Shown piece after piece: positions 1 to 19,537 of a DNA stretch of 64,000 bases (positions within the stretch are counted from its first letter, which is position 1; the number at the start of each line of letters is the position of its first letter). Below the pieces are notes generated by a model. It saw nothing but the letters and a program-made list of their open reading frames with translations, searched no databases and had not been told where the DNA came from. The position numbers and the translations under genes were made by a program. Source of the DNA: Paucisalibacillus globulus (lineage in GTDB: Bacteria > Bacillota > Bacilli > Bacillales > Amphibacillaceae); contig NZ_LT855405.1 of the NCBI RefSeq assembly GCF_900184735.1, positions 248,001-312,000 on the forward strand, written 5' to 3'.

Positions 1-314
1 CCTATCGTTGTCATGGCGAGTCCACCTTTTATGTGGCCAATCCAAGCATCCACTGCCGTATACAAATCTCTACCAAATCCGCTATAAGAAAGAAACATTC
101 CCATTAAAATGAACATCGGAATAACGCTTAACGAATATGAACTTGCTGTTGAAAATGGTGTCGTCCCTAATTGAACGAGTGCGGAATCCCACCCACGGAT
201 CAAGGCAAGTCCTAAAACTCCGACCAGAATTAGAGAGAATGCAACTGGGACTCGAAGCATAAATAATACAAGCAAAGCGATAATCCCTACTATACCAATT
301 ATTTCGGGGCTCAT
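1..314 (-). CDS. dctM: TRAP transporter large permease DctM (partial, N-terminus)
   Basis: Reading leftward from an ATG at 314, the frame stays open to the window edge, giving about 104 residues that begin MSPEIIGIVGIIALLVLFML. This is the hydrophobic N-terminus of the DctM/SiaM large membrane subunit, which carries out sodium-coupled uptake of organic acids or sugar acids. Phrases such as RVPVAFSL, SVIPMFILMGMF and GFGRDLYTAVDAW are typical of DctM. The ATG overlaps the dctQ stop (ATGA), so the two are translationally coupled in the order dctP-dctQ-dctM. The C-terminal three quarters lie outside the window. The family is clear; the substrate cannot be told. Confidence 0.9.
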   Translation of the reverse strand, partial: MSPEIIGIVGIIALLVLFMLRVPVAFSLILVGVLGLALIRGWDSALVQLGTTPFSTASSYSLSVIPMFILMGMFLSYSGFGRDLYTAVDAWIGHIKGGLAMTTI

Positions 315-4107: not shown

Positions 4108-4114
4108 TAATTCA

Positions 4115-4154
4115 TTCGACACGATTCGAGCATTTTCGGGAAGTGACAGGCACC
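4115..4154 (-). repeat. REP-like repeat, copy 2
   Basis: Reverse-orientation unit ending CGGGAAGTGACAGGCACC, followed by a degenerate GGTACC half-unit in the same arrangement as copy 1. It lies between the stop of the aldo/keto reductase gene (4171) and the hairpin at 4064-4107. Confidence 0.85.
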
Positions 4155-4170
4155 TTAAAAGACGGGTACC

Positions 4171-4995: not shown

Positions 4996-5085
4996 ATTGA
5001 TTCCTCCCAACATTAGCTTACCTTCTAAAATTAGCCTAACTAAATCATACAAGAACTAGTAGTAGAAATCGACCAATAAAAATGT

Positions 5086-5114
5086 AAAAAGCGTCAGCCC
5101 AAATGGACCAACGC
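5086..5114 (-). terminator. Terminator of the 2-oxoacid dehydrogenase operon
   Basis: On the minus strand GCGTTGGTCC pairs (with wobble) with GGGCTGACGC across the loop ATTT, followed by TTTTT. It lies 40 bp beyond the E3 stop codon and ends the E1a-E1b-E2-E3 operon. Confidence 0.75.
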
Positions 5115-5155
5115 CAGCTAGAACATTTGGAATCTTACAAGGTATTCCCTCTGTC

Positions 5156-6532
5156 CTAGCTATAATGAATCCCTTTCCCCATCCAAGCTGCAGCACTTTC
5201 AAATAATGCTTCTGATACGGTTGGATGCGGGAAAATCATCGATTCTATTTCTTCTACTGTTCCTTCTAAATGGATAAACGAAGTTGCTTGGCTAATCATT
5301 TCGGTCACATGTGCACCAACCATGATTACTCCAAGAATCTCCCCAAATTTCTCATCCGCGATAATCTTCATAAATCCACTATTCTCGCCTGCAGCAATTG
5401 CCTTTCCATTACCTGCAAGGTCTACTTTTTTCGTACGAACAGAATACCCTTTTGCTCGTGCTTGTTCCTCTGTTAATCCAACACTAGCTATCTCTGGGAA
5501 TGTATACACACAACGTGGCATTGAGAGATCTTTCTTATTCGGCTTTCCTAGTATATGGTTTACTGCATGAATCCCTTCTTCACTTGCAGCATGTGCTAAT
5601 TGGAAACCACCAATTAAATCACCAATCGCATAGATACCATCAAGCGAAGTACGCATATTTTGATCCACTTTTACAAATCTTCCATCAAATGCTACACCTA
5701 GTTCATTAAATCCCTTTAAATTAGGCTCACGTCCGACAGATATTAGGACACTATCTGTTTCTAATAATACTTTTTCACCTTGTTTTTCCAATTCAACAAT
5801 AGTCCGGGAATCCTTCTTAAAGCCTGTAACCTTCGCACCTGTATAAATAGAAATCCCCTTCGCCACTAGTTGCTTCGTTAAAAATGCAGATGCATCCGGA
5901 TCTTCTGAAGGAATGACTCGATCTGCCATCTCGACAATCTCAACAGAAGTTCCTAAACTATTAAACACACAAGCAATCTCCAGTCCTATTACTCCGCCTC
6001 CCATAATGACAAGACGTTCTGGCACTTCAGTAATATCAAAGATAGTATCACTTGTATGATACTCAATATGTTCAAGACCCGGTATACCAGGGACAAACGG
6101 TTTAGAACCATTTGCTAGAATAATATTCTTCGCTTGAATCTCTTCTTTACTGTCTTCAGATTCAATGACGACCTTCTTATTAGAAAAAACCGTTCCAAAG
6201 CCATTAAAATGAGTAATTTTATTTTGCCTTAGTAACCCTTTGATACCATTTCGCAACTGCTTAATATCCTGATTTTTTCGGTTTACCATCTCTTCGATAG
6301 AGAAAGAGAAATCATTTATGGTAATACCATACGTTTTCGCTTCTTTTATTTGATTAATCACTTCAGCATGTTTCAATAAGGTTTTTGAAGGTATACACCC
6401 TCTGTTCAAACAGGTTCCACCAAGGTCCCGTCCCTCAACAAGAGCAACGGACAGGCCGGATTTTGCTGCGCGAATTGCGGCAACATAACCACCAGGACCT
6501 CCACCAATAATGGCAACATCAAAATTTTTCAT
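5156..6532 (-). CDS. acoL: Dihydrolipoamide dehydrogenase (E3 component)
   Basis: A 458-residue flavoprotein that reoxidises the lipoyl groups of E2, passing electrons to NAD. Visible are the N-terminal FAD motif (IIGGGPGGYVAAIRAA), the redox disulfide Cys41/Cys46 (GGTCLNRGCIPSK), the NAD motif (VIMGGGVIGLEIA), the second FAD motif (GIYAIGDLIGG) and the C-terminal HPTVSEAL with the catalytic His-Glu. Three possible starts crowd together (TTG 6538, ATG 6535, ATG 6532) after AGGGGG; the last has the best spacing. It is the last gene of the operon, 12 bp after E2. The symbol acoL follows the operon layout; an lpd-type name would fit equally. Confidence 0.92.
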   Translation of the reverse strand: MKNFDVAIIGGGPGGYVAAIRAAKSGLSVALVEGRDLGGTCLNRGCIPSKTLLKHAEVINQIKEAKTYGITINDFSFSIEEMVNRKNQDIKQLRNGIKGLLRQNKITHFNGFGTVFSNKKVVIESEDSKEEIQAKNIILANGSKPFVPGIPGLEHIEYHTSDTIFDITEVPERLVIMGGGVIGLEIACVFNSLGTSVEIVEMADRVIPSEDPDASAFLTKQLVAKGISIYTGAKVTGFKKDSRTIVELEKQGEKVLLETDSVLISVGREPNLKGFNELGVAFDGRFVKVDQNMRTSLDGIYAIGDLIGGFQLAHAASEEGIHAVNHILGKPNKKDLSMPRCVYTFPEIASVGLTEEQARAKGYSVRTKKVDLAGNGKAIAAGENSGFMKIIADEKFGEILGVIMVGAHVTEMISQATSFIHLEGTVEEIESMIFPHPTVSEALFESAAAWMGKGIHYS

Positions 6533-6544
6533 CATCAATACCCC

Positions 6545-7903
6545 CTACACCAACAAGCTATATGGATCTTCTAGGCTTTCCTTTAGCTCCGTTAAGAATT
6601 CAGCAGCTGGTGCTCCGTCAATTACTCTGTGATCAAATGATAAACTTAATACCATCATCGGACGCACTTCAATCTGACCATTCACCACTACTGGCTTTTC
6701 AACAATTCGACCTATACCTAGAATTGCTGTTTCAGGAGGATTGATAATCGGTGTAAACCCATCAATAGCATACATACCTAGGTTACTAATAGTAAATGTA
6801 CTACCTTGCATCTCATCTGGAGTTAGCTTATTATCTCGTGCTTTCTTACCTAATGTCTTACTTGCTTCTGTCAGTTCAGCAAGGCCTTTTTTATTTGCCT
6901 GTTTCACAGACGGTACAATTAAGCCATTTTCTACTGCAACAGCTAATCCAATATTTACATCGTTATTATAAACAATCTCATTATCGATTAAAGCTGCATT
7001 CACTTTTGGATGGTTACCAAGTACATGGGCAACTGTTTTCATAATGATTTCTGTATAAGATAACCGGTATCCGGTTTGACTTTCCACAACAGGAAGTAAA
7101 GCCTTACGAAGCTCTATAGCTTTCGTCATATCAACATCACTTGTGAGTGTAACATGTGGAATCGAGCGAACGCTTTCGAGCATCTTGTCTGCGATAGCCT
7201 TTCTGAGTCCCTTCAATTTCACACGCTCACCTGTCACAGTTTCTTTAACTGGTGCCTTTTGTGCTTCTATATATGCAAGTACATCAGCTTTTTCAATTTT
7301 TCCTCGTACACCAGTGCCAGTAACAAGAGTTAAATCAACACCATTTTCTTTTGCAATTTTCTCTGCTAAAGGTGTTACTAATACAGTATTATCTGCAATA
7401 GCCTGAATAACATCCTGTTCGTGAATACGTCCCTTAGGTCCAGAGCCAGGAACCGTATTTAATGAAAAATCATTCTCACGAGCGACTCTTCTTGCAGCTG
7501 GTGTAGCACGAACTTTTCCATCAACTGGAACGGTCTTGCTACTAGATTCAACCGCTTCTGTTGCTGCTACTTCTATACCTTTACTAGACTCTGATTCTGT
7601 CTCAGCAGTTGTATCATCCGTATCCTCTCCACTTATTCCAGGAGATTCTAAAGGAACTTCTTCACCTTCATTACCAATATAGGCGATGATTGTATTAACC
7701 GGAATTTCATCATCCTCTTGGAAATACTTCTTGAGTAAAATTCCTTCTTCATATGCCTCTACTTCGATGTTTATTTTATCTGTCATGATTTCAAATATTG
7801 GCTCCCCGACTTCAACGGGATCACCTTCTTCTTTAAACCATTGAAGTAACGTGCCGACTGCCATCGTACTACTTAGTTTAGGCATGAAAACCTCTTTAGC
7901 CAT
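6545..7903 (-). CDS. acoC: Dihydrolipoamide acyltransferase (E2) with two E3-binding domains
   Basis: A 452-residue E2 core. Domains in order: lipoyl domain at 1-80 with lipoyl-lysine Lys43 (MTDKINIE); an acidic linker at 81-128; a first peripheral-subunit-binding domain at about 131-171; a second at about 174-213 (VTPLAEKIAKENGVDL); and the catalytic acyltransferase domain at 225-452 with His425 and Asp429 (SFDHRVIDG). Two binding domains are unusual, since most E2 proteins carry one. The ATG has GGAGGG 8 nt upstream. The gene sits between E1b and E3. Which acyl group is transferred is undecided: acetoin cleavage gives acetyl-CoA, but pyruvate or branched-chain 2-oxoacids use the same fold. 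Confidence 0.9.
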   Translation of the reverse strand: MAKEVFMPKLSSTMAVGTLLQWFKEEGDPVEVGEPIFEIMTDKINIEVEAYEEGILLKKYFQEDDEIPVNTIIAYIGNEGEEVPLESPGISGEDTDDTTAETESESSKGIEVAATEAVESSSKTVPVDGKVRATPAARRVARENDFSLNTVPGSGPKGRIHEQDVIQAIADNTVLVTPLAEKIAKENGVDLTLVTGTGVRGKIEKADVLAYIEAQKAPVKETVTGERVKLKGLRKAIADKMLESVRSIPHVTLTSDVDMTKAIELRKALLPVVESQTGYRLSYTEIIMKTVAHVLGNHPKVNAALIDNEIVYNNDVNIGLAVAVENGLIVPSVKQANKKGLAELTEASKTLGKKARDNKLTPDEMQGSTFTISNLGMYAIDGFTPIINPPETAILGIGRIVEKPVVVNGQIEVRPMMVLSLSFDHRVIDGAPAAEFLTELKESLEDPYSLLV

Positions 7904-7915
7904 GATGATCCCTCC

Positions 7916-8899
7916 TTACGCTCGGTTTAATGTTTCTTTTACAGCTTTAATAATGTCTGGCACTTGAGGTACATGTGCCTTTTCCAGTTCAGGATTGTAT
8001 GGAATTGGCGAATTCGCTCCACCAAGACGTTTAATAGGTGCATCAAGATAATCGAACGCTTCACTTTCTGCTATCATACTAGCAATTTCTCCACCAATTC
8101 CGCCTCGCTTAACCGCTTCATGGACAACGATAACCTTACCTGTTTTCTTCACAGAATTTACAATCGTTTCCTCATCAAGTGGGACAATAGTACGTGGATC
8201 AACTACTTCCACACTAATTCCTTCTTTTTCTAGTTCTTTCGCCGCTTCTAATGACTTATGAACCATAATAGCAGTTGCAACAATGGTTACATCCGTACCT
8301 TCACGTTTAATATCTGCTTTCCCTAACGGTATACTGTACTCTTCTTCCGGTACGTCTGATGATGTTTTGTATAGTAATTTATGTTCATAAAATATTACTG
8401 GGTTATCATCATCCATCGCAGCCTTTAAGAGACCTTTTGCATCATATGCTGTAGAAGGTTGAACTACTTTTAATCCTGGAATATGAGCAACCCATGCCTC
8501 TAAGCTTTGGGAATGTTGTGCAGCAGCACCTGTTCCAGAACCACTTGGCGTTCTTAAGACCATTGGGACTTTTCCTTTTCCACCGTACATATAGCGGATT
8601 TTAGCTGCTTGGTTAACCATTTGATCTAGCGCTATCGTAATAAAATCGGAAAACTGTAATTCTAGTATTGGTCTCATCCCAGTTAGTGCAGAACCGACCG
8701 CTGCTCCAGCAATACCTGCTTCACTAATAGGTGTATTACGAACACGTTCCGGACCAAATTCCTCAATCATGCCACGCGTTACACCAAAAGCTCCACCATA
8801 TACACCGATATCTTCACCTAAAATATAGACATCGTCATTTTTTCGCATTTCTTGACTCATTGCTTCTCGTACTGCTTCTAAGTAAGTAATCTCTCTCAT
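7916..8899 (-). CDS. acoB: 2-oxoacid/acetoin dehydrogenase E1 beta subunit
   Basis: A 327-residue transketolase-like subunit that completes the thiamine-diphosphate site with E1 alpha. Family motifs are [18 protein letters not shown] near the N-terminus, [15 protein letters not shown] (the conserved Glu that activates the cofactor), and [17 protein letters not shown] in the C-terminal domain. Length is normal. AGGAGGGG precedes the ATG. It lies 12 bp after E1a and 12 bp before E2, clearly one transcript. Confidence 0.92.
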
Positions 8900-8911
8900 C
8901 TTTAACCCCTC

Positions 8912-9901
8912 CTACGCATAAACATCTGTTAGTAAGTCATCTAATGTTGGTGCTGGACTTTCTTCTGCGAACTTAACAGCATCTTCAATTTCTTGTTTTA
9001 CAGCTAAGCGAATTTCTTCCGCCTTTTCTTCAGTCAATAGTCCTGCTTCAATCAATACTTCTTTATAACGTTTGATAGGATCTTTCTTACGCCATTCTTG
9101 CTCCTCTTCACGTGTACGATATTTCTTCGCATCACTCTTAGAATGACCTTTCCAGCGATATGTTTTTGCTTCAATTAGTGTAGGACCTTTCCCACTACGT
9201 GCACGATTAATTGCTTCATCCGTCACATTAATCATTTCGATAATGTCATTTCCATCCGCAACAACTCCAGGAATACCATATGCTCCTGCACGATCTGCAA
9301 TATGCTCCACTTTAGCCATTTCTTTAATTGGTCCGGACATACCATATTGGTTATTTTCACAAACAAAGATAACTGGTAGGTCCCAAATAGCTGCAAGGTT
9401 TACCGCTTCATGGAAACTTCCTTCATTCGTTGCACCATCTCCGAAGAAGCAAACGGTTACATAATCCAGTTTCTTCATCTTAGCAGTAAGTGCTGAACCT
9501 ACAGCTAACGGGATTCCTCCTGCAACAATTCCATTCGCCCCAAGATTACCCATTTCAACATCTGCAATATGCATGGAGCCGCCTTTTCCTTTACAATAAC
9601 CAGTTGTTCTACCAAATAACTCAGCCATCATTTTATCTGCAGTTGCACCTTTAGCAATACAGTGTCCATGACCACGGTGTGTACTAGTGATCTTATCTTC
9701 TACTGTAAGTAGAGCACATACCCCAGCAGCACTTGCTTCCTGACCAACCGCTAAGTGAGTGGTACCGTGAATCATTCCTTTTGCGAAAAACTCATCTACT
9801 TTTTCATCAAATAGACGAATTTGCCACATTTGTTTGTATAGGTCTATTAATTTGTCATTACTTAAATCTGGAATTAGTAATTTTTCTTTTGTTAATTGCA
9901 T
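8912..9901 (-). CDS. acoA: 2-oxoacid/acetoin dehydrogenase E1 alpha subunit
   Basis: A 329-residue thiamine-diphosphate enzyme, first gene of the operon. The cofactor motif is GDGATNEGSFHEA...CENN (residues about 155-190), and the phosphorylation-loop region RTREEEQEW and the HRGHGHCIAKG segment are present. It resembles AcoA and other short PdhA-type proteins. No AcoR-type sigma-54 activator or -12/-24 promoter is present. Instead it has a SigA promoter followed by an operator shared with the SorC/PTS operon (9926-9989), so naming it an acetoin enzyme is provisional; co-regulation suggests it handles a product of that sugar pathway. Confidence 0.88.
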   Translation of the reverse strand: MQLTKEKLLIPDLSNDKLIDLYKQMWQIRLFDEKVDEFFAKGMIHGTTHLAVGQEASAAGVCALLTVEDKITSTHRGHGHCIAKGATADKMMAELFGRTTGYCKGKGGSMHIADVEMGNLGANGIVAGGIPLAVGSALTAKMKKLDYVTVCFFGDGATNEGSFHEAVNLAAIWDLPVIFVCENNQYGMSGPIKEMAKVEHIADRAGAYGIPGVVADGNDIIEMINVTDEAINRARSGKGPTLIEAKTYRWKGHSKSDAKKYRTREEEQEWRKKDPIKRYKEVLIEAGLLTEEKAEEIRLAVKQEIEDAVKFAEESPAPTLDDLLTDVYA

Positions 9902-9925
9902 TTAATGCTCACCCCTATATTGTTT

Positions 9926-9989
9926 TTTTACATTTGTTCATTGGTGTTACATTTGTAACTATCATAAACTCATTTTCTTATTTCGTCAA
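9926..9989 (-). promoter_or_regulatory. Promoter and SorC-type operator of the E1a-E3 operon
   Basis: On the minus strand: -35 TTGACG (9984-9989), 17 bp, -10 TATGAT (9961-9966), 1 bp, then a 34-bp block (9926-9959). Read on the plus strand, the block starts TTTTACA and ends GTTACATTTGTAAC. It aligns without gaps to the block at 13010-13043 before the PTS operon (26 of 34 identical), and both sit exactly 1 bp downstream of a -10. This is strong sequence evidence for a common regulator, presumably the SorC-family protein at 13133-14071. Confidence 0.8.
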
Positions 9990-10084
9990 GAGATAAAGCG
10001 TTTTCTTTCAGCATTTTTATAGATTGATAATTAAATAGCTTTGCTACAACTTGCCCTTCCAACTTAGTAATATTTGAAAATAAA

Positions 10085-10127
10085 AAGCTGCCTCTTAGAT
10101 AATAGATCCTTATCCCTGAGACAGCCT
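10085..10127 (-). terminator. Terminator of the SorC-linked PTS operon
   Basis: On the minus strand a 16-bp stem with two mismatches (GCTGTCTC...GAGGCAGC outer part, GGATAA/TTATCT inner part) is followed by TTTTT. It lies just after the IIB stop codon at 10138. Confidence 0.75.
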
Positions 10128-10137
10128 CCTTTAATCA

Positions 10138-10422
10138 CTAGCTATTTATCAATTCTAAAATTTTCCCATACATTTCTTCCGTTCCAAATCCTGTTAATAA
10201 AGGTACACCATCAATTACTTTGTCTCTTACATTATCAGGAACCAAAGTTGTTGAAACAACAATATCATAATCATCTAGTCTATTTAACTCATCTGTGATT
10301 TTAGATTGGAATAATTGCACTTTATCTTCTAGATTATTGTCTTTTAACCAATCTCTTACTTTTCCCGTTACTACTGTAGATGTAGCAATTCCAGTACCAC
10401 ACATAATTAATAATTTTTTCAT
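10138..10422 (-). CDS. PTS galactitol-type EIIB component
   Basis: A 94-residue cytoplasmic phosphocarrier. The phosphorylated cysteine is Cys8 in MCGTGIATST, the P-loop typical of GatB-like IIB proteins. It passes phosphate from IIA to the sugar entering through IIC. GGGGG lies 8 nt before the ATG. It is the last gene of the operon SorC-controlled IIA-IIC-aldolase-IIB; having IIB separated from IIC by the aldolase is less common than the IIA-IIB-IIC order seen in the second cluster (18728-19500). Confidence 0.9.
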   Translation of the reverse strand: MKKLLIMCGTGIATSTVVTGKVRDWLKDNNLEDKVQLFQSKITDELNRLDDYDIVVSTTLVPDNVRDKVIDGVPLLTGFGTEEMYGKILELINS

Positions 10423-10443
10423 GTTTAATTCCCCCAGATAATG

Positions 10444-11091
10444 TTATTTTTGTCCATAAGATGTTGCGTAGAAATTATTACACATATCTACTACTTCACT
10501 AGGAAGAGGTTCAATGTTTGGATTGTGAAGTAAAGCATAATGCGCATATTCAGCAGTCTCTTCCAATATTACTGCCGCTTTCAATGCTTTATTAATGCTA
10601 TCTCCAACTGTGAATACCCCATGATTCTTTAGTAGGATTGCTGGACAATCATCTACATATTTAACTATTTCCTTTCCGATTTCTTCACTTCCAATCGAAG
10701 CAAATCCGGAACAAGGAACACCATGTCTAAATACATTCGCAGCTGTAGTCGTATAACTTGGCAAGCTCTTTCCCTGTATAGCAAAACTTGTAGCAAAAGG
10801 TGAGTGGGTATGAATCACACTGTTTATATTCTTCCTATGTTTATAAACGTATAGATGACTTTCTGTATCAACTGATGGCTTCAAGTCACCTTCCACCACA
10901 TCCCCATCAAGGTTAACGATGACCATATTCTCAGGTGTTAGATCATCAAAGTCAACTCCACTAGGTTTAATGATTACAAGTTCTGTATCGGGAATGCGAT
11001 AACTAACATTCCCACTTGTCCAACGAACTAGATTATTCTCTTTTAGTTTTTTATTAGCTTGACATACCTCACTTCTTAACTCGAAGTACAT
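10444..11091 (-). CDS. Class II aldolase/epimerase (AraD/FucA family)
   Basis: A 215-residue zinc-dependent enzyme acting on sugar phosphates. Zinc ligands are visible as HTH in SVIHTHSPFAT and the later NHGVFTVG histidine; RWTSGNVSYR and IIKPSGV form the phosphate-binding part, and LKPSVDTESHLYVY matches the epimerase/aldolase signature. It could be an L-ribulose- or L-fuculose-phosphate type aldolase, or a 4-epimerase; the sequence does not decide. It starts 2 bp after the IIC stop and precedes IIB, so its substrate is most likely the phosphorylated product of this PTS or its oxidised form. Confidence 0.85.
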   Translation of the reverse strand: MYFELRSEVCQANKKLKENNLVRWTSGNVSYRIPDTELVIIKPSGVDFDDLTPENMVIVNLDGDVVEGDLKPSVDTESHLYVYKHRKNINSVIHTHSPFATSFAIQGKSLPSYTTTAANVFRHGVPCSGFASIGSEEIGKEIVKYVDDCPAILLKNHGVFTVGDSINKALKAAVILEETAEYAHYALLHNPNIEPLPSEVVDMCNNFYATSYGQK

Positions 11092-11093
11092 TT

Positions 11094-12443
11094 TTATGCC
11101 ACTCCTTGATCAGCACTAAGTTCTTTCTTTGGTTTAATCTTATTTACATAAACCATTCCAGCTAGAATGATTAGACCTAATAATCCAATACCCCACCAGC
11201 TAAATACTTTTGGTAACCATACAAATACAAATGTTGTCCAAACTGCACCGTCAACTAGTGAAGAAATACTTGCATTAGATCCCATATCGAAGTTCGCTGC
11301 GATAGCAGAATCTGTGAATAAAGGTGCTACCCATGTTGCAATGTAAAGTCCAACCGCTATATAAACAGAACCTGCGATTACTGTTCGAATGATGTTCCCT
11401 CTGAATACTGGAACCATTAAACAAATTAAGAATGGAATGGTTGCCAAGTCACCAAATGGTAGCACTGTATTTCCTGGTAGGATTACAGCTAAGAATAAAG
11501 TAACTGGAACAATGATCAATGATGCTGATAGTACTGCAGGATGTCCTACAGATAACGCACTATCCATACCAATGTATAGGTCTCTTCCTGGGAAGCGTTT
11601 CTTAACGAAGTTTCCTGCTGCTTCAGACACAGGAGATAGACCTTCCATTAATAATGCAACCATTCTAGGCATTAGCATCATAACAGCACCGGTTTGAACA
11701 GAAAGTTGTAAAGTCTCTGAGACATTATAACCAGCTAAGAAACCGATAACGATACCAATCATAACACCCATTACAGTTGAATCCCCAAAGATCCCCATAC
11801 GCTTTTGGATTGTTTCTGGATTTGCTTCAAGTTTATTAAAACCTGGGATTCTATCAAACAACCAGTTAAACGGTAAAGCAACTAAGAATGATGGTGCAGA
11901 TGCCCCGTGTGGGAATGTAATGTTTTTAAAGCCATAGAACTTTTCAATATATTTTGCAAGAACATCTCCCAAAAAGAAGATTAGTAGAATATGAACAATA
12001 ATAGTAAAAATTGCTAATCCGAAATTACCAGTTAATGCGTACACTAATGACCCTGTAAATGCACAATGCCAATAATCCCATACATCCACATTTAATGTTC
12101 TAGTTAATCCAATACCAAGAAGTATAACGTTAGCAGCGATACCAAGTGGAATAGCCAAACTTCCTAATGCAGTTCCATAAGAGATTGCTGCTGCTGCTGG
12201 CCAACCAACATCAATGGTATTTAATTGAAACCCAAAGTTTTCAACCATTGCTTGTGCTGCAGGTCCTAAACTATCAGTTAATAATCCAATTACTAAATTT
12301 AATCCAATAAATCCAATCCCTACTGTCAAACCAGATCGGAATGCTTTAGCTGGCTTAGAGCCTAAAACTAGAGCAAACACAAAGATAATAATTGGGAGCA
12401 TAACACTCGCTCCAAGATCTACAAACCATTGTAAATACTGCAT
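11094..12443 (-). CDS. PTS galactitol-type EIIC permease
   Basis: A 449-residue polytopic membrane protein of the EIIC-GAT family, with about ten hydrophobic segments. Diagnostic stretches are GSKPAKAFRSGLTVGIGFIG near the N-terminus, GLSPVSEAAGNFVKKRFPGR in the middle and VILPGNTVLPFGDLATIPF near the C-terminus. It moves a polyol or related sugar across the membrane with phosphorylation. It is 30% or more similar by eye to the EIIC at 17370-18629 but is clearly a separate transporter, with its own regulator. Confidence 0.92.
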   Translation of the reverse strand: MQYLQWFVDLGASVMLPIIIFVFALVLGSKPAKAFRSGLTVGIGFIGLNLVIGLLTDSLGPAAQAMVENFGFQLNTIDVGWPAAAAISYGTALGSLAIPLGIAANVILLGIGLTRTLNVDVWDYWHCAFTGSLVYALTGNFGLAIFTIIVHILLIFFLGDVLAKYIEKFYGFKNITFPHGASAPSFLVALPFNWLFDRIPGFNKLEANPETIQKRMGIFGDSTVMGVMIGIVIGFLAGYNVSETLQLSVQTGAVMMLMPRMVALLMEGLSPVSEAAGNFVKKRFPGRDLYIGMDSALSVGHPAVLSASLIIVPVTLFLAVILPGNTVLPFGDLATIPFLICLMVPVFRGNIIRTVIAGSVYIAVGLYIATWVAPLFTDSAIAANFDMGSNASISSLVDGAVWTTFVFVWLPKVFSWWGIGLLGLIILAGMVYVNKIKPKKELSADQGVA

Positions 12444-12480
12444 CTTTTTTCCTCCCTCTCCATTTAGGAACTATTATTTA

Positions 12481-12963
12481 TTATTTATTATTACTTACAG
12501 ATACCTCAGTAAAATTTAGAACGGTATCGATTACCTCTTTTTCAGAAGTACATTTTGTTACCGCTTCCATAAATGCTTTATTTTGAATCAGACTCATCAC
12601 TGTTTGTAGCACTTCCAATTGATTCTCAGGTTTTTGAAGAGCTAACATGAACACTAATTTAACTTCTACATCTTGAACTCCCATTCCCATGTGCTGGAAC
12701 GTAACTGGTTGTCTAAGTATCCCAATACTAATTGCTTCTTCATTAACATGTTCAGCATCAGTATGTGGTAATGCTACACCAAATTGCTCTGTAGCTAGTC
12801 CAGTAGGAAATTCTTTTTCCCGCTGCTTTATAGCTTGAAGATAACTACTTTTGACAAGTCCTTTTTCCTGTAAACTCGTTGCCATTGTTTCAAAGAGTTC
12901 ATCTGTATCTCGGACATCTAGAAAAAATACTAACTTCTCTGAAATAACGTTCTTTAATTCCAA
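12481..12963 (-). CDS. PTS EIIA component (fructose/mannitol type)
   Basis: A 160-residue phosphocarrier of the PTS_EIIA_2 fold. The phosphorylated histidine is in FGVALPHTDAEHV. It takes phosphate from HPr and gives it to the IIB at 10138. The start is a TTG at 12963, 8 nt after AGGGGG; no better start exists. First gene of the operon, directly behind the SorC-type operator and promoter at 13010-13073. Confidence 0.9.
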   Translation of the reverse strand: MELKNVISEKLVFFLDVRDTDELFETMATSLQEKGLVKSSYLQAIKQREKEFPTGLATEQFGVALPHTDAEHVNEEAISIGILRQPVTFQHMGMGVQDVEVKLVFMLALQKPENQLEVLQTVMSLIQNKAFMEAVTKCTSEKEVIDTVLNFTEVSVSNNK

Positions 12964-12979
12964 ACTTTGACCCCCCTCT

Positions 12980-12997
12980 TTTGTAAACCCTTACAAA
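12980..12997. promoter_or_regulatory. Second palindrome in the PTS leader
   Basis: TTTGTAA and TTACAAA form a 7-4-7 palindrome between the main operator and the IIA start. The half-site equals the outer half of the SorC-type operator, so it may be an auxiliary binding site that allows looping or oligomer contact. Confidence 0.45.
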
Positions 12998-13009
12998 TAA
13001 AGGTATTAC

Positions 13010-13073
13010 TTTTACAAATGTTACAGTGTGTTACCTTTGTAAAAATAATACCTTCAAATTTTAGTATTGTCAA
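13010..13073 (-). promoter_or_regulatory. Promoter and SorC-type operator of the PTS operon
   Basis: On the minus strand: -35 TTGACA (13068-13073), 17 bp, -10 TATTAT (13045-13050). The block at 13010-13044 is an inverted repeat with 15-nt arms, TTTTACAAATGTTAC and GTTACCTTTGTAAAA (13 of 15 pair), around a 5-bp centre. It covers the transcription start, as expected for a repressor or effector-controlled SorC protein. A matching copy lies upstream of the 2-oxoacid dehydrogenase operon (9926-9989). Confidence 0.82.
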
Positions 13074-13132
13074 TATATTTTAAAATTTATATTTTCCCAC
13101 ATTTTACCTACTGCAGGATAGTGGTCATTTAT

Positions 13133-14071
13133 TTACTTCAAAACCGCATTCGCAGTAGCTTCATCTGTAACCAGAATATCTATATATCCACCTCTTAACA
13201 TAGCTAATAAAGCATCTGCCTTATAAACTCCAGAAACAACTGCAATGACTTTCTTTATGTTTTTTAAATCCTCTAATGATAGACCGACCATTTTTTTACT
13301 GAACGGGTTGTCTACTTTGTTACCCATTTCATTAAAAAAGCGAAATCCTATATCCCCGACTACACCTAACTCTTTTAACTTACTTAAGTCTCCTTCATCT
13401 AAGTAACCAAGGCTTTCTAGGGTTGAGTTTTCAAATGGATTTCCCAAACTGATAAGACCGATATCCACATTTTTTCCTTCTTCAATGACCGCATTAATAT
13501 CATCCATGCTTAATAAGCGATTTAACAATTCTTCTGATTCAACAATTGCTGGCGCATATAAGAATGAACACTCCGCACCCATCTTCTTACCTAGTTCATA
13601 TGCTAGCTGGTTAGCGTGGATCTCTACTTTTTTTCTACCCATACCACCTTCAAGTGGTACTATTTTGATATCCTCGTTTAACTGAAATGGGTATTCATTA
13701 ACGAATGTTGTTAATGTCTCTCCCCAAGAGATCCCAATACTCTTTACATCCTTTAAATTTTTAGATAGGTAATTTGCTGCAGCTCGTCCTACTGCATGTA
13801 AGGTAATATCTGATTTGGAACTGGAAGGTACGACTTTTGCATCGATTAAATTAAATTCCTTTTCAAGATCTTGCTCTAGACTGACTGTATGTATGGTTTG
13901 ATCATTAATATAAACTTCGACAATTCCTATATCTCTCGCCTTTTGAAGTGATTTTGAAATAATAGGTCTTGAAACAGAAAATTTCTTTGCAATTTGTTCC
14001 TGTGTCCAGTTTTCCCCGTAATACAGATTAGCTATTTTAACTAGCTGCCTTCTTTCTTCCCAATCGACCAT
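13133..14071 (-). CDS. SorC-family (DeoR/SorC) sugar-binding transcriptional regulator
   Basis: This 312-residue regulator has an N-terminal helix-turn-helix (about 8-50, NWTQEQIAKKFSVSRPIISK) and a C-terminal sugar-phosphate-binding domain (about 55-312) with SIGISWGETL, LEGGMGR and VDIGLISLGNPF. SorC-family proteins are usually tetramers that respond to a phosphorylated sugar. It lies just upstream of the PTS operon and is separated from it by the operator at 13010. Based on the shared operator, I infer that it also controls the dehydrogenase operon starting at 9901. AAGGGGAG precedes the ATG. Confidence 0.88.
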   Translation of the reverse strand: MVDWEERRQLVKIANLYYGENWTQEQIAKKFSVSRPIISKSLQKARDIGIVEVYINDQTIHTVSLEQDLEKEFNLIDAKVVPSSSKSDITLHAVGRAAANYLSKNLKDVKSIGISWGETLTTFVNEYPFQLNEDIKIVPLEGGMGRKKVEIHANQLAYELGKKMGAECSFLYAPAIVESEELLNRLLSMDDINAVIEEGKNVDIGLISLGNPFENSTLESLGYLDEGDLSKLKELGVVGDIGFRFFNEMGNKVDNPFSKKMVGLSLEDLKNIKKVIAVVSGVYKADALLAMLRGGYIDILVTDEATANAVLK

Positions 14072-14104
14072 ATTGTTCTCCCCTTTTTTCTACATAGTAT
14101 TATC

Positions 14105-14134
14105 ACTATAAAATAAAAAATATGGCTATAGCAA
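14105..14134 (-). promoter_or_regulatory. Probable promoter of the SorC-family gene
   Basis: Minus-strand TTGCTA (14129-14134), 18 bp, TATAGT (14105-14110), about 35 bp before the start codon and just after the terminator of the upstream operon. There is no copy of the SorC operator here, so autoregulation is not evident. Confidence 0.4.
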
Positions 14135-14138
14135 CAAA

Positions 14139-14166
14139 AAGAGTAAATCCTCTTGGATTTACTCTT
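14139..14166 (-). terminator. Terminator of the second PTS operon
   Basis: A perfect stem of at least 10 bp (GAGTAAATCC/GGATTTACTC) with loop TCTT and a minus-strand TTTTT run, just after the stop codon of the zinc dehydrogenase at 14192. It separates the PRD-controlled operon from the SorC gene. Confidence 0.88.
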
Positions 14167-14191
14167 GATACGAATCTCTCTATTTATTTAC

Positions 14192-15238
14192 TTATGGATT
14201 AAAAATAACCTTAACCGCATCCATCTCACGATTCGTCATTTTACGGAAAGCCTCAGGACCTTCCTCCAATGGCAGGCGATGCGAAATCATTGGTTCTGAT
14301 TTGATTTGGCCAGTGCTCATATAATGAACAGTTGAGCTCCACTCTTTACCTGGGAACGGAGCAGAAATAGCATTCCATGAACCATAAACAGTTAGTTCGT
14401 TACGAACAATTTTCTCAAAGAAGAAGCGTTCGATATTAATGTCTGCATAAGGAATCCCCATAAATACTACTTCTCCACCTTTACGTGGTAGTGCAAATAC
14501 TTGTGCAGAAGTAATAGGTGAGCCAGCTGATTCCACAGCTAAATCAACACCACGTCCATTTGTATGTTCTAGAATTTGCTCATGTGGGGCTTTTTCTAAT
14601 GAATTAATCGTAACGTCAGCGCCTAATTCTTTTGCGATTGCTAACTTTTTATCATCTATATCAATGGCATATACTTTTTTCGCACCAAAGATTTTAGCCC
14701 ATTGTACTGCAAGTAATCCGATACTACCAACACCCATAACGGCTACTTCAGCACCTGGTTGGATTTTTGTACGATAGAAACCATGTGCAACTACTGCAGA
14801 TGGTTCAACCATTGCAGCTGTATCAAAGTCCACATTATCCGGTAATGGGATCACATGTGTATCTGGTAGTTTCGTGTACTCTGCATAGGCACCAGGGCGA
14901 TATGCACCAATCACAGATAGCTTTTCACAACGTGCTGGTTCACCCTTCTGACAATATTCACATTCACCACAAACAAATGCCGGGCATCCTGCAACACGGT
15001 CACCAATCTTCACATTCGTTACACCTTTACCAACTTCTACTACTTCACCTGCAAACTCATGTCCAAATGTCATCCCTTCAACATATGGCCCAAGTTTACG
15101 GTATCGTGAAGTATCCGAACCACAGATACCTACAGATTTCACCTTGATAATTACTTCATTTGTATCTTCAATGACTGGTTTCGGAGTGTTCTCTTCAAAA
15201 CGGAGGTCTTCTACTCCATATAAATTCAATGCTTTCAA
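14192..15238 (-). CDS. Zinc-dependent polyol(-phosphate) dehydrogenase, GatD-like
   Basis: A 348-residue medium-chain dehydrogenase. Catalytic zinc residues lie in GICGSDTSRY and GHEFAGEV; the structural zinc site is CGECEYCQKGEPARC; the NAD fold has VMGVGSIGLLAVQWA. It resembles galactitol-1-phosphate 5-dehydrogenase (GatD), which oxidises the product of a galactitol-type PTS to a ketose phosphate. I chose the TTG at 15238 (8 nt after GAAGGG; product starts MKALNLYGVEDLRF) over a GTG at 15247 that overlaps the ribosome site. Last gene of the operon. Confidence 0.88.
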   Translation of the reverse strand: MKALNLYGVEDLRFEENTPKPVIEDTNEVIIKVKSVGICGSDTSRYRKLGPYVEGMTFGHEFAGEVVEVGKGVTNVKIGDRVAGCPAFVCGECEYCQKGEPARCEKLSVIGAYRPGAYAEYTKLPDTHVIPLPDNVDFDTAAMVEPSAVVAHGFYRTKIQPGAEVAVMGVGSIGLLAVQWAKIFGAKKVYAIDIDDKKLAIAKELGADVTINSLEKAPHEQILEHTNGRGVDLAVESAGSPITSAQVFALPRKGGEVVFMGIPYADINIERFFFEKIVRNELTVYGSWNAISAPFPGKEWSSTVHYMSTGQIKSEPMISHRLPLEEGPEAFRKMTNREMDAVKVIFNP

Positions 15239-15261
15239 ATCTAACACCCTTCCCTGTTGTA

Positions 15262-15420
15262 TTAACTAGCTGACTTACTTTCGGTTTTTCTGCTTCTGGT
15301 ATAGATTTTATACACCGCAAAACCAATGACAATTGTATTCAGAATCATTTGGTGCTCAAAATAAAACTGACTAATGGCACGAAATGGTCCTAACATAAAA
15401 TCTAAAAGTGAATTTACCAT
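15262..15420 (-). CDS. Small membrane protein in the PTS operon
   Basis: A 52-residue product beginning MVNSLLDFMLGPF with one or two hydrophobic stretches (residues about 5-20 and 24-40) and a basic tail KIYTRSRKTESKSAS. The ATG at 15420 follows GGGG with 7-nt spacing; the frame is open up to 15474, but those starts lack a ribosome site. It ends 23 bp before the dehydrogenase start. No family is recognised; it may be an accessory subunit of the transporter. That it is real is supported by position, spacing and composition. Confidence 0.5.
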   Translation of the reverse strand: MVNSLLDFMLGPFRAISQFYFEHQMILNTIVIGFAVYKIYTRSRKTESKSAS

Positions 15421-15480
15421 AAAATTACCCCATTCCATTAAAATTTTTATCCGAGTCCCAGAATGAACTGACACAATGTC

Positions 15481-15553
15481 TGGGCACCTGTTACCTCAAA
15501 ATAATCGACAAAATTCGGGAAGTGACAGGCACCCCAAAACCCAACCTCAGCAC
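15481..15553 (-). repeat. REP-like repeat, copy 3 (inside the PTS operon)
   Basis: Reverse-orientation unit with CGGGAAGTGACAGGCACC, extended by two GGTGC half-units. It begins right after the stop codon of the deoC-like gene (15554) and lies inside an operon, without a terminator hairpin, unlike the other copies. It separates deoC from the small membrane gene and could affect mRNA stability or cause partial polarity. Confidence 0.82.
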
Positions 15554-16225
15554 CTAATAAGATGCGGTTGATACTCCGCCGCTAATAATAGCGACTGCTC
15601 CGCTTGCGCCGATTCGTGTTGCGCCTGCTTCTACAATTTTCACTGCATCTTCATATGTTTTTACTCCGCCTGCTGCTTTTACTTGGATTTTGTCTCCTGC
15701 AACAGATTTAAGAAGTTTGACATCTTCTACTGTTGCTCCACCACCATTAAATCCAGTTGCAGTTTTGACAAAGTCAGCGCCTGCTTCGATAATTAATTCA
15801 GTAACTTTTACTTTTTCTTCATCTGTTAATAATGCTGTTTCGATGATTACTTTTGTTGTTAATCCACCAGCAGCTTTTACAACTGCAGCAATGTCATCAC
15901 GTACTACATCATATTCACCAGATTTAAGTGCACCTAAGTTAACTAGCATATCAATTTCGGTTGCACCGTTTTTAATCGCTTCTTTTGTTTCTTCTACTTT
16001 CACATGTGTTGTTGCCCCACCAAGGGAAAATCCAATTGGAACCCCAACTTTAATTCCATGTGGATCTAGTAAACTATGTGCATAAGATACATAATAAGGA
16101 TTTACGAACACTGTTTTAAAACCATATTCAATTGTTTCTTCACAGAATGCTTTAATTTCCTCTTTTGTAGCTGTTGGTGTTAATAATGTGTAGTCAATGA
16201 TATCGATCAATTGTTGTTTATCCAT
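15554..16225 (-). CDS. Deoxyribose-phosphate aldolase-like protein (DeoC family, divergent)
   Basis: A 223-residue class I aldolase with TIM-barrel motifs: DYTLLTPTATKEEI at the N-terminus, EIDMLVNLGALKSG (active-site Asp), FVKTATGF (Schiff-base Lys) and IQVKAAGGVKT (second Lys). Compared with the DeoC pattern I remember, FVKTSTGF and VKASGG have Ser changed to Ala, and the usual CVNP has become FVNP, so the substrate may differ from deoxyribose 5-phosphate. Presence in a polyol PTS operon fits cleavage of a ketose or aldose phosphate. TAGGAGG precedes the ATG; 30 bp after the upstream dehydrogenase. Confidence 0.85.
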   Translation of the reverse strand: MDKQQLIDIIDYTLLTPTATKEEIKAFCEETIEYGFKTVFVNPYYVSYAHSLLDPHGIKVGVPIGFSLGGATTHVKVEETKEAIKNGATEIDMLVNLGALKSGEYDVVRDDIAAVVKAAGGLTTKVIIETALLTDEEKVKVTELIIEAGADFVKTATGFNGGGATVEDVKLLKSVAGDKIQVKAAGGVKTYEDAVKIVEAGATRIGASGAVAIISGGVSTASY

Positions 16226-16255
16226 TTAAAAGCCTCCTAGTAATCTAGCAAACTA

Positions 16256-17287
16256 TTAATCTGCTGGAGTTAGTAATACTTTAATAGCTTCACCGCTCTT
16301 AATAGCGTTATAAGCTTCATCCCACTGTGTAATGTCATATACATGCGTAACAAGTGCTTTTGCATTTACTTTTCCTTCATTCATTAATGCAAGTGATGGT
16401 TCCCAGTCAGCAGGCTTTTGGCTTCTGCTTCCTACCACGCGAATTTCTTTTTGAATGATTTTTTCTAGATCAAATGGAACTTCGGCATTCGCAAATAGAC
16501 CAACTTGTGCATATTGACCTTTTTTACGTAATAAACCTAGTGCTTGCTTAGCAGCTGGAACAGCACCAGAACATTCTAAAACAACGTCTACCCCGTAGCC
16601 ATTTGTTAATTGATTCACAACTTCTTGTAAATCATCTTCTTGTGTATTCACGGTATAGTCAATACCAACTTCTTTTGCTTTATCTAAGCGTACTTTGTCA
16701 TTTGTTAATCCCGTAATAATAACTGTAGCACCATGACTTTTTGCAACTTGAGCTGCAAGTAATCCAATAGGTCCAGGACCTGTAACAAGTACTACATCGC
16801 CTTCATTGATTTCCGTTTTAGCTACTGCATGATACGTACATGCTAAAGGCTCTGTCATTGCTGCAGATTGATAGTCCACATGTTCAGGAAGATGATGAAC
16901 ACTTTCTTTACGTGCAATTAGATATTTGGCGAAACCGCCATCTTGTTGTGAACCAAGTCCTTTACGGTGGTTACATAGATTGTAGTCACCAGACTGACAG
17001 TATTCACATTCTCCACAAATATAAAAAGTTGTTTCAGAAGTGACACGGTCCCCAACTTTAAACTCGGTTACATTTTCACCAACTTCAACAACTTCTCCAG
17101 AAAACTCATGCCCTAATGTTACAGGAACTGCAACTTTATAATGGCCTTCGTAAGTATGAATATCAGAACCACAAATACCTGCGTACTTAACCTCAATTTT
17201 CACTTGATCTGCACCAGGTGATGGTACGGCTTTCTCTTGAACTTCTAAATTACCAAATCCTAATTCCGTCTTCACTAGTGATTTCAT
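16256..17287 (-). CDS. Zinc-dependent dehydrogenase (sorbitol/L-iditol dehydrogenase type)
   Basis: A 343-residue medium-chain dehydrogenase with catalytic zinc residues in GICGSDIHTYEGH and GHEFSGEV, the structural site CGECEYCQSGDYNLC and the NAD motif VTGPGPIGLLAAQVA. It oxidises a secondary alcohol of a polyol or polyol phosphate. AGGAGG precedes the ATG. It follows the EIIC gene after an 82-bp gap that holds a GC-rich hairpin (17329-17354). A second, different dehydrogenase lies at the operon end (14192), so two oxidation steps or two substrates are likely. Confidence 0.88.
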   Translation of the reverse strand: MKSLVKTELGFGNLEVQEKAVPSPGADQVKIEVKYAGICGSDIHTYEGHYKVAVPVTLGHEFSGEVVEVGENVTEFKVGDRVTSETTFYICGECEYCQSGDYNLCNHRKGLGSQQDGGFAKYLIARKESVHHLPEHVDYQSAAMTEPLACTYHAVAKTEINEGDVVLVTGPGPIGLLAAQVAKSHGATVIITGLTNDKVRLDKAKEVGIDYTVNTQEDDLQEVVNQLTNGYGVDVVLECSGAVPAAKQALGLLRKKGQYAQVGLFANAEVPFDLEKIIQKEIRVVGSRSQKPADWEPSLALMNEGKVNAKALVTHVYDITQWDEAYNAIKSGEAIKVLLTPAD

Positions 17288-17328
17288 AGATGATTCCTCC
17301 TTGTCCTAACAGGTGCAATATAGTATAC

Positions 17329-17354
17329 AGCGGGGACTACACGTCCCCACCGCT
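17329..17354 (-). other. Intercistronic hairpin between EIIC and dehydrogenase genes
   Basis: AGCGGGGAC pairs with GTCCCCACCGCT with one bulge; there is no U-run on the coding strand. It could be an mRNA-processing or stability element that lowers downstream expression. Confidence 0.45.
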
Positions 17355-17369
17355 AAAGTCAATTAACAA

Positions 17370-18629
17370 TTAGTTAAATAAATCAAATACTCTCCAGATA
17401 ACCCAGTTAATTAAGTTACCACCTTGGTCAATACTTGAAACCGAAGCAGATCCTTCTGGCATGTTAATATTTGCATCCACTGCCATTTGTGTAAATACTG
17501 GAGCGATGTCTGTTGCCATATATAGTGATAAAGCAATCATAATCGTACCAACAATAACAGAGTGAATGATATTACCACGTGCCGCACCAACGATAAATGC
17601 GATAACAAATGGAATAGTTGCTAAGTCACCGAATGGTAATACATTGTTACCTGGTAAGATAACAGCGATAAGAACTGTAATTGGTGTTAAGATTAACGCA
17701 GTCGCGATTACAGATGGGTGTCCTAAAAGAACCGCAGCATCTAGACCGATTGTGATATCACTATCACCGAATTTCTTGTTCAACCAGTTACGAGCTGATT
17801 CAGATACAGGCATTAAACCTTCCATTAGAATCTTAACCATACGAGGCATTAAGATCATAACAGCTGCCATAGACATACCGATATTGATGATTTCACCAAT
17901 GTCATAACCAGCAAGTGCTCCAATTGCAGCACCTAGAACTAAACCAATAACCATTGAGTCACCGAATACACCAAAACGTTTTTGGATAGACTCAGAGTCT
18001 GCATTTAATTTATTGATTCCAGGAATTCTTTGTAAACCTTTTACTAAGAAGATAAAAGGTGCGTATGATACAGTACTACCAGTTGCTACGGATACACCAG
18101 GCATTTCATAGAAGTCACGCACCATTGGTGTAGTCCAGTCAGCGATTTTAAGACAGACGATTTGGAATAGAACAGCCGCGATTAAACCTTGAATGATGCT
18201 TCCAGAAATCGCATATACTACTGCAGCCATGAATGTGTAGTGCCAGTAGTTCCAAATATCTACGTTCATTACTTTTGTTGTTTTTGTAAGTAACATTACT
18301 ACGTTTACTACTAAACCTAATGGGATAATAAATGCCGCTACAACAGATGCCCAAGCAATAGAAGATGTTGCAGGCCAACCCACGTCAATAACGTTTAATT
18401 CTACGCCTAAACGGTCAACCATGCCTTGTGCAGCAGGTCCTAAGTTAAGCGTTAACAAATCAATTACTAAGAATATACCTACAAAGGCTACCCCAATTGT
18501 TAAACCTGAACGGAATGCTTTACCTGGTTTTTGTCCAAAGAACAAACCTAGTAAAAATATCGCAACAGGTAGGATTACAGTTGCCCCTAATCCTAAAAAT
18601 CCTTGTATAAAATCAACAAATGATTGCAT
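17370..18629 (-). CDS. PTS galactitol-type EIIC permease (second system)
   Basis: A 419-residue polytopic EIIC-GAT protein. It shares with the EIIC at 11094 the segments KPGKAFRSGLTIGVAFVGIF, GLMPVSESARNWLNKKFG and ILPGNNVLPFGDLATIPF, but has its own sequence throughout. TAGGAGG lies 8 nt before the ATG. It follows IIB after 98 bp that contain a hairpin (18675-18706). Substrate probably a polyol, given the dehydrogenases downstream. Confidence 0.92.
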   Translation of the reverse strand: MQSFVDFIQGFLGLGATVILPVAIFLLGLFFGQKPGKAFRSGLTIGVAFVGIFLVIDLLTLNLGPAAQGMVDRLGVELNVIDVGWPATSSIAWASVVAAFIIPLGLVVNVVMLLTKTTKVMNVDIWNYWHYTFMAAVVYAISGSIIQGLIAAVLFQIVCLKIADWTTPMVRDFYEMPGVSVATGSTVSYAPFIFLVKGLQRIPGINKLNADSESIQKRFGVFGDSMVIGLVLGAAIGALAGYDIGEIINIGMSMAAVMILMPRMVKILMEGLMPVSESARNWLNKKFGDSDITIGLDAAVLLGHPSVIATALILTPITVLIAVILPGNNVLPFGDLATIPFVIAFIVGAARGNIIHSVIVGTIMIALSLYMATDIAPVFTQMAVDANINMPEGSASVSSIDQGGNLINWVIWRVFDLFN

Positions 18630-18674
18630 TCTTGTTTCCTCCTAAGTGAAGAGAGATTTATAAGGTTGTCCAAG

Positions 18675-18706
18675 CGAGGGTAGCTTCATGATGAATACTG
18701 CCCTCG
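18675..18706 (-). other. Intercistronic hairpin between IIB and IIC genes
   Basis: CGAGGGTAG pairs with CTGCCCTCG (one mismatch) around a 14-nt loop, without a U-run. As at 17329, it may set the ratio of soluble to membrane PTS subunits. Confidence 0.45.
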
Positions 18707-18727
18707 ATTGGAGAACTAAACCCTTTG

Positions 18728-19012
18728 TTATTTTTTAAGCTCTTCTAAAATCTGTTTCTTTGTATCTTCAATACCAATACCAGTTAAGAAATTACGTGCA
18801 TTAATAACCGGGAATGGGTATTCAGTTTTTGTCATCGCAGTTGTTACTAGTAAGTCTGCTGTGTCCACATAGCTACCTACTTCTGCAATTTTAATTTGAA
18901 TTAAATTTACAGGAATGTTGTGTTCCTTTGCCATTTCTTCAATAGCACTATTTACAACAGTAGAAGTAGCAATACCTGCTCCACATGCAACTAAAACGTT
19001 CTTTTTCGCCAT
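18728..19012 (-). CDS. PTS galactitol-type EIIB component (second system)
   Basis: A 94-residue phosphocarrier with the active Cys in VACGAGIATSTVV. GGAGGTG precedes the ATG. The start overlaps the IIA stop (TAATG), so IIA and IIB are translationally coupled. Confidence 0.9.
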   Translation of the reverse strand: MAKKNVLVACGAGIATSTVVNSAIEEMAKEHNIPVNLIQIKIAEVGSYVDTADLLVTTAMTKTEYPFPVINARNFLTGIGIEDTKKQILEELKK

Positions 19013-19500: not shown

Positions 19501-19537
19501 AGTTGTCACTCCTAATTATTATGATTAGCCGAAAACC

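Follow-up and report, generated by a model that had tools for sequence, protein, structure and literature searches.

A predicted SorC-family regulon of Paucisalibacillus globulus and a candidate route for the catabolism of 1-deoxyxylulose 5-phosphate

The acetoin dehydrogenase complex, AcoABCL, is known as a system under AcoR and sigma-54, and sigma-54 activators are the usual partners of aco operons. In Bacillus, DeoR belongs to the SorC family and has deoxyribose-5-phosphate as its effector. Here we describe a locus with likeness to both, from a stretch of 64,000 nucleotides of Paucisalibacillus globulus (contig NZ_LT855405.1, positions 248,001 to 312,000; called the window below), in which a SorC-family gene accompanies a sugar phosphotransferase system (PTS) operon and an operon for an E1-E2-E3 dehydrogenase complex. 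It appears rather probable that SorC and its operator govern both operons, that the complex cleaves 1-deoxyxylulose 5-phosphate (DXP), and that related bacteria reach DXP from methylerythritol.

As in the acetoin dehydrogenase operon, E1-alpha, E1-beta, E2 and E3 stand in one row in the window, the same type of ketol cleavage is proposed, and the E2 of two plasmid-borne relatives meets the acetoin E2 model. Unlike that operon, the window operon has a SigA-type promoter with a predicted SorC operator and no sigma-54 site near it, is tied to a PTS and, elsewhere, to a DXR-II-family oxidoreductase, and would act on a phosphorylated substrate. DeoR is the best NCBIfam model for the window regulator, but the score of 231 bits is under the cut-off of 420 and the genes controlled would be different. 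The PTS of the relatives resembles the glucitol/sorbitol system SrlA-SrlE-SrlB with GutM: at locus L047, SrlA (246 bits, cut-off 150) and SrlE (454 bits, cut-off 400) exceed the NCBIfam equivalog cut-offs, whereas IIA and GutM fall below theirs, the proposed substrate is methylerythritol, and this PTS is not in the window cluster. As far as excerpts of PMC3847144 go, DXR-II (or DRL) is an alternative DXP reductoisomerase of isoprenoid synthesis. The enzymes of the relatives keep its key residues, yet the direction proposed for them is the oxidative one of catabolism; they stand next to PTS genes and occur also in hosts without an IspD-level match.

A predicted operator at two promoters

The regulator, the complex and the sites discussed here, all on the minus strand, are:

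13133..14071, minus strand, SorC/DeoR-type sugar-binding regulator (PF04198, Sugar-bind, 236 bits, cut-off 27)
8912..9901, minus strand, E1-alpha, acetoin/pyruvate-dehydrogenase type (family models)
7916..8899, minus strand, E1-beta, the clade marker for the class-wide survey
6545..7903, minus strand, E2 lipoyl acyltransferase (family models)
5156..6538, minus strand, E3 dihydrolipoyl dehydrogenase (TIGR01350, 550 bits, cut-off 409)
9961..9989, minus strand, E1-operon promoter TTGACG-17-TATGAT (-35 at 9989-9984, -10 at 9966-9961)
13045..13073, minus strand, PTS-operon promoter TTGACA-17-TATTAT (-35 at 13073-13068, -10 at 13050-13045)
9928..9958, minus strand, predicted SorC operator (31 bp) of the E1-E2-E3 operon, directly after the -10 box
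13012..13042, minus strand, predicted SorC operator (31 bp) of the PTS operon, based on block likeness and self-complementarity and kept in L040
10078..10132, minus strand, terminator-like hairpin with U tract between the operons (-22.4 kcal/mol, z -5.0)

The predicted operator, with the consensus TTACAAatGTaAc-n5-gAACAnaTGTAA right after the -10 box, is a conserved site in relatives. To find these relatives, 101 genomes were searched with the SorC protein, and 398 Bacilli genomes each with the DXR-II relative and with E1-beta. A 31-bp matrix made from the two window sites alone was applied, at a threshold of at least 15, to the 200 bp before each gene plus its first 20 bp, with shuffled regions as controls and the near-identical locus L040 left out. 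Sites were detected in 30 of 49 E1-alpha regions, all 49 distinct, compared with 0 of 980 shuffled regions, and 19 of these 30 sites are directly preceded by TTGAnn-16..18-TAnnn(T/G). They also occur before GutM in the glucitol-type PTS operon (26/44; shuffled, 0/880), before a GlpD-like gene (5/8; 0/160), before SrlB (8/46; 1/920) and before the DXR-II relative (7/49; 1/980), some of the SrlB and DXR-II regions possibly stemming from overlapping loci of one genome. Three sets of SorC-family gene regions gave 0/6, 6/45 and 2/9 (shuffled, 0/120, 2/900 and 0/180). No site of at least 15 was present in the regions of E1-beta (0/49), E2 (0/46), E3 (0/25), SrlA (0/45) or SrlE (0/44), nor at the three further E1 loci of the window genome (E1-beta identity 43-49%), where the best score is 4.2. 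The GlpD-like FAD oxidoreductase gene (L047:10261-11907 and its orthologues) is divergent from a second SorC gene.

In the window itself, 34-bp blocks begin 1 bp after each -10 box, at 9959-9926 in the E1 operon and at 13043-13010 in the PTS operon. An earlier note, made from these letters alone, had described one layout for both promoters (-35, 17 bp, -10, 1 bp, block), which both indeed share, and a gapless alignment of the blocks at 26 of 34 positions; the alignment is real, with 25 identities rather than 26. Identity over the inner 31 bp is 23/31, and self-complementary positions number 24/31 in the PTS site and 16/31 in the E1 site. Of 2000 pairs of 170-bp sequences from a first-order Markov model, 8 reached a likeness of 25/34, as did 2 of about 2000 pairs of random window pieces; judged from the window alone, the likeness is moderately rare and suggestive. 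The site at the E1 promoter is taken as real beyond this likeness because of its conservation before E1-alpha in the relatives. In the region 4000-14300, the PTS promoter (11 of 12 consensus positions) ranks first and the E1 promoter (10 of 12) joint second among 26 promoter-like sites, the number of such sites being 26 as compared with a mean of 35.2 in shuffles. Since the hairpin with its U tract follows the PTS operon and precedes the E1 promoter, the genes probably form two transcription units.

The exact 13-base half-site is found three times in the 3.92 Mb window genome, two of them at these promoters. The third (C12:331200) was dropped as an operator candidate, as only 16 and 17 of its 31 positions match the full sites. 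With up to two mismatches, the half-site gave 459 matches compared with 574 for the reversed control, which is no genome-wide enrichment. Neither promoter has a match to the sigma-54 pattern, with up to two mismatches allowed, at a distance of up to 150 bp, matches of this kind in general occurring at chance rate, and no AcoR-like gene was seen among the open reading frames listed for 3000-22000, as judged by eye without a domain scan; both absences had been claimed before.

The SorC protein is the likely reader of both predicted operators, given that many Bacilli have kept the E1 site and that the window genome holds just one other SorC-family match (E <=0.001), at 31% and aligned over residues 65-311 only. 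Its gene, as the earlier note had placed it, stands beside the PTS promoter, adjoining the 13073 end. The earlier idea of one operator over two operons read by SorC is thereby supported, with a narrow sharing on the PTS side: the motif proved conserved at the E1 promoter of relatives, while before a galactitol-type PTS operon it is known from the window, the near-identical relative L040 and L112.

Partners of the complex in relatives and on plasmids

In the relatives, the complex clusters with GutM, SrlA, SrlE and SrlB of a glucitol-type PTS and with a DXR-II-family oxidoreductase. The survey of 398 Bacilli genomes, which used E <=1e-60 for the DXR-II relative and E <=1e-125 for E1-beta, found the former in 37 genomes, the latter in 40 and both in 34 (13 families), with a Fisher p of 1.4e-39 that is not corrected for shared ancestry. 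Just three genomes (G234, G354 and G274) have the DXR-II relative and no E1-beta of this clade. In 26 of 38 DXR-II places, distributed over 11 families, E1-beta lies within 20 kb. The E1 of the window nests among those of the DXR-II carriers L040, L047 and L049, in a tree that contains no proven acetoin dehydrogenase, and it is therefore likely, by sequence kinship, that the window complex has the same activity as that of the DXR-II carriers. Members of the same E1 clade also occur beside sigma-54 activator genes in L166, L167 and L168 (by domain scan in L166 and L168, by eye in L167), neighbours that point to a different mode of regulation and possibly a different substrate.

Along its full length, the DXR-II relative aligns with PDB 3upy (E 7e-102), and it also matches Pfam DRL_cat. 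According to excerpts of PMC3847144, 3upy is the DXR-II of B. abortus, T229 is absolutely conserved in DXR-II, and K191, K193 and T229 anchor fosmidomycin. From those excerpts we chose a residue set of K191, K193, T229, H250 and R320, all of which are kept in 47 of the 49 readable copies (a fiftieth is truncated) and in 7/7 copies of the plasmid collection. The two exceptions, in G234 and G354, lack K193 and R320, keep T229 and H250, and have neither PTS nor E1 in the stretch seen.

With regard to isoprenoid synthesis, DXR-I is over its cut-off in 35 of the 37 genomes with DXR-II (the exceptions being G024 and G104), so that DXR-II is redundant there. Among 21 genomes tested, HMG-CoA synthase is over its cut-off in 15 and IspD in 6. 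Eight cluster genomes (G002, G006, G008, G010, G024, G047, G059 and G104) combine an HMG-CoA synthase over its cut-off with the absence of any IspD match better than 43 bits, the cut-off being 181; of these eight, the two examined for DXR-I both lack it. Methylerythritol phosphate (MEP) would thus have no known route to isoprenoids in these hosts. The excerpts of PMC3847144 leave the origin of DXR-II open for genomes that already have DXR-I, and mention DXR-II in two species without other MEP- or mevalonate-pathway genes.

On plasmids of Alphaproteobacteria the gene set is found again, but not the operator. Four such records, picked from match lists, were opened, and DXR-II, E1a, E1b and E2 stand in a row in all four, the gene tables of the plasmid collection being incomplete. 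Two of the four E2s are over the acetoin-dehydrogenase E2 cut-off (404.5 and 377.5 bits, cut-off 307). On one plasmid, a sugar kinase and an ABC transporter replace the PTS, and E3 and a fructose-bisphosphate aldolase are also present. Soon after the DXR-II-E1-E2 row of the Rhizobium sp. K1/93 plasmid (L189:14439-19666), thiC, thiS, thiazole synthase and thiD are found. Priestia aryabhattai has the gene set on a plasmid as well, with the operator before both E1-alpha and DXR-II. A Clostridioides difficile plasmid carries a module similar to that of the window, in which E1-E2-E3 are accompanied by a sugar-binding regulator, by a PTS of IIA-IIB-IIC make-up and by a class II aldolase 42.5% identical to the window enzyme; no DXR-II is annotated in the 21 kb shown. 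The Ligilactobacillus salivarius plasmid (L191:9004-16578) has genes for fructose-6-phosphate aldolase and transketolase after those for DXR-II, a glucitol PTS, GutM and a regulator, and no E1, a set that possibly serves a fermentative use of the same compound.

A candidate pathway and the window variant

In the relatives, the glucitol-type PTS would import 2-C-methylerythritol and phosphorylate it to MEP, and the DXR-II-family oxidoreductase, running in reverse, would turn MEP into DXP. On this ketol, thiamine diphosphate of the complex would attack C2 and the C2-C3 bond would break; glyceraldehyde 3-phosphate would leave, the acetyl unit would pass via lipoamide to coenzyme A (CoA), and E3 would make NADH. 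By oxidising DXP, the complex would draw the reductoisomerase reaction in its reverse direction. SorC would control both operons through the one operator and would probably be released by a pentulose-type sugar phosphate such as DXP.

Judging by a title of Testa, Cornish and Poulter from 2004, the sorbitol PTS is said to transport methylerythritol in Salmonella, and by one of Yokota and Sasajima from 1986, 1-deoxyketoses are reportedly formed by pyruvate and acetoin dehydrogenase. Such formation gives a chemical precedent for cleaving the same bond in DXP, and so do the pyruvate dehydrogenase E1 mutants of Escherichia coli, which allow DXP production according to excerpts of PMC3424233. Among the matched titles listed from the open-licence PMC literature, none concerns a pathway that degrades methylerythritol or DXP.

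The PTS operon of the window, through which its variant of the pathway would be fed, consists of:

12481..12963, minus strand, PTS IIA, galactitol-like (PF00359, 122 bits; best NCBIfam model galactitol IIA, below its cut-off)
11094..12443, minus strand, PTS IIC, galactitol type (TIGR00827, 466 bits, below its cut-off of 542; PF03611, 305 bits)
10444..11091, minus strand, AraD-like enzyme of the class II aldolase/epimerase family (NF005123, 278 bits, cut-off 251)
10138..10422, minus strand, PTS IIB, galactitol-like (PF02302, 38 bits; best NCBIfam model galactitol IIB, below its cut-off)

The AraD-like enzyme is over the cut-off of NF005123, the L-ribulose-5-phosphate 4-epimerase subfamily, and is probably, by its sequence, a pentulose-5-phosphate 4-epimerase. 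Against solved structures it scores 113 bits with 6btd (FucA) and 109 bits with 1k0w (AraD). PSVD, HTHSP, NHGVF and a C-terminal YGQ are present in 7/7 aligned sequences; we take the former for the metal-site motifs, together with an epimerase-type Asp, and the Tyr of the latter for the C-terminal Tyr of this family. At the place of Asp120 of 1jdi, which we assume to be catalytic, the window enzyme has Asn, and the seven sequences divide into three with Asp, three with Asn and one with Ala. The gene is rare, being found at E <=1e-60 in 4 of 398 genomes, all four with the E1-beta clade, and its distance from E1-beta in G000, G157 and G298 is about 8 kb or less. A galactitol-type PTS and an AraD-like enzyme are near E1 in the window genome, G007, G068, G157 and G298, and in the last four the glucitol PTS and DXR-II are also beside the same E1, so that both modules surround one complex. 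In G425, a relative with 59% identity is in a row with a split transketolase, which suits a 4-epimerase that supplies a xylulose-type phosphate; the row itself (L183:7112-9744) also contains a SorC-family gene.

In the window variant, the galactitol-type PTS would bring in another 1-deoxypentulose or a similar ketol phosphate, and our tentative guess, held at somewhat less than even chance, is that the AraD-like enzyme epimerises this phosphate to DXP. The two routes, through DXR-II in the relatives and through the epimerase in the window, would then converge on DXP.

Whether all this amounts to a catabolic pathway of two phyla, which takes the first steps of the MEP route backwards and ends in a new DXP dehydrogenase complex, sits in Bacilli under a SorC regulon and has in the window a variant with a second PTS and an epimerase, seems to us evenly poised. 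If so, the persistence of a "redundant" DXR-II in many Firmicutes would be explained: a catabolic role beside a PTS and an acetoin-dehydrogenase-like complex would answer the question left open in the excerpts of PMC3847144. Methylerythritol, and perhaps related methyltetrols, would be a new carbon source for bacterial metabolism, a new acyl-CoA-forming reaction would be added, and DXP would gain a place in catabolism. Several labels would then need correction, the plasmid records naming pyruvate dehydrogenase, PTS glucitol/sorbitol transporter, SAF domain-containing protein and NAD(P)H-dependent oxidoreductase.

Alternative readings and neighbouring genes

The earlier note had proposed that the class II aldolase splits the sugar phosphate imported by the PTS and that the complex oxidises one of the fragments. 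An aldolase-family gene does stand between the PTS genes and is kept near E1 in the five genomes named above, a class II aldolase is near the E1 operon of the Clostridioides difficile plasmid, and the best solved relative of the window enzyme is a fuculose-phosphate aldolase. The proposal is nevertheless set aside as distinctly improbable, because the commoner DXR-II route has the same complex, joined to a glucitol-type PTS and a DXR-II-family enzyme, and no aldolase. The epimerase subfamily assignment and the neighbouring split transketolase in G425, which is expected of an epimerase, also speak for convergence on DXP as the better reading of the sequences. To our knowledge, neither lactaldehyde nor glycolaldehyde is a substrate of such complexes. 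A true acetoin (or pyruvate/2-oxoacid) dehydrogenase, which would share a SorC regulon with a sugar PTS in order to handle overflow metabolites, is unlikely, though a reading to be reckoned with: E1 and E2 are of the acetoin/pyruvate type, and the clade members of L166 and L168 adjoin genes with sigma-54 activator domains. It is not the first choice because of the DXR-II link, seen in 34 of 37 genomes; in addition, the operator is common to the glucitol PTS operon, and the other three E1 loci of the window genome are devoid of it. There is also a very slight chance that the DXR-II relative acts on some other branched polyol phosphate (for example, from apiitol phosphate to xylulose 5-phosphate) and that the complex cleaves a non-deoxy ketose phosphate. 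The chemistry would be of the same kind, and transketolase-type genes neighbour both the AraD-like gene of L183 and the DXR-II cluster of L191, but the residues of proven DXR-II are conserved and an acetyl-transferring type of complex would better fit a methyl ketol.

Several observations weigh against the DXP reading that we prefer. Sequence does not separate DXP from acetoin or another methyl ketol as the substrate, and the window genome has no DXR-II gene; it is one of six genomes with E1-beta and no DXR-II, together with G146, G165, G172, G255 and G469. At twelve of the 38 DXR-II places, E1-beta is not found within 20 kb (five carry it on the same contig at 137-238 kb, in five the contig lacks it altogether, and two are the copies lacking K193 and R320), and Listeria and L. 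salivarius have DXR-II and a glucitol PTS with no annotated E1 in about 19 kb. In four genomes of the genus (G000, G001, G007 and G009), an IspD-like match reaches 146-153 bits, which is below the cut-off. As for the operator, 19 of the 49 E1-alpha regions have no site of at least 15 within 200 bp, G157 and G298 carrying one some 300 bp ahead of E1-alpha, beyond the scored region. With L040 excluded, the galactitol-type IIA regions have a site in 1/11 (IIAs) and 1/15 (IIAg) cases (shuffled, 0/220 and 0/300), and none of at least 15 precedes the galactitol-type PTS operon of G157 and G298. The plasmid regions of Aminobacter, Rhizobium (2), Terrarubrum, Clostridioides difficile, Listeria and L. 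salivarius also gave no site of at least 15, so that, Priestia being the exception among the plasmids, the operator is known from Bacilli alone.

Around the two operons, some further features were recorded. Two stretches of the window E2 (6545-7903) match the E3-binding domain. An aldo/keto reductase gene (4171-5052) is outside the E1 operon, with a terminator-like site between them, although such sites are no commoner than chance there. On the other side, positions 14192-21616 contain another PTS operon of galactitol type, together with two zinc alcohol dehydrogenases, DeoC (TIGR00126, 248 bits, cut-off 117) and a BglG-type regulator, and the same block adjoins the SorC/glucitol-PTS/DXR-II/E1 cluster in L047, L048 and L050.

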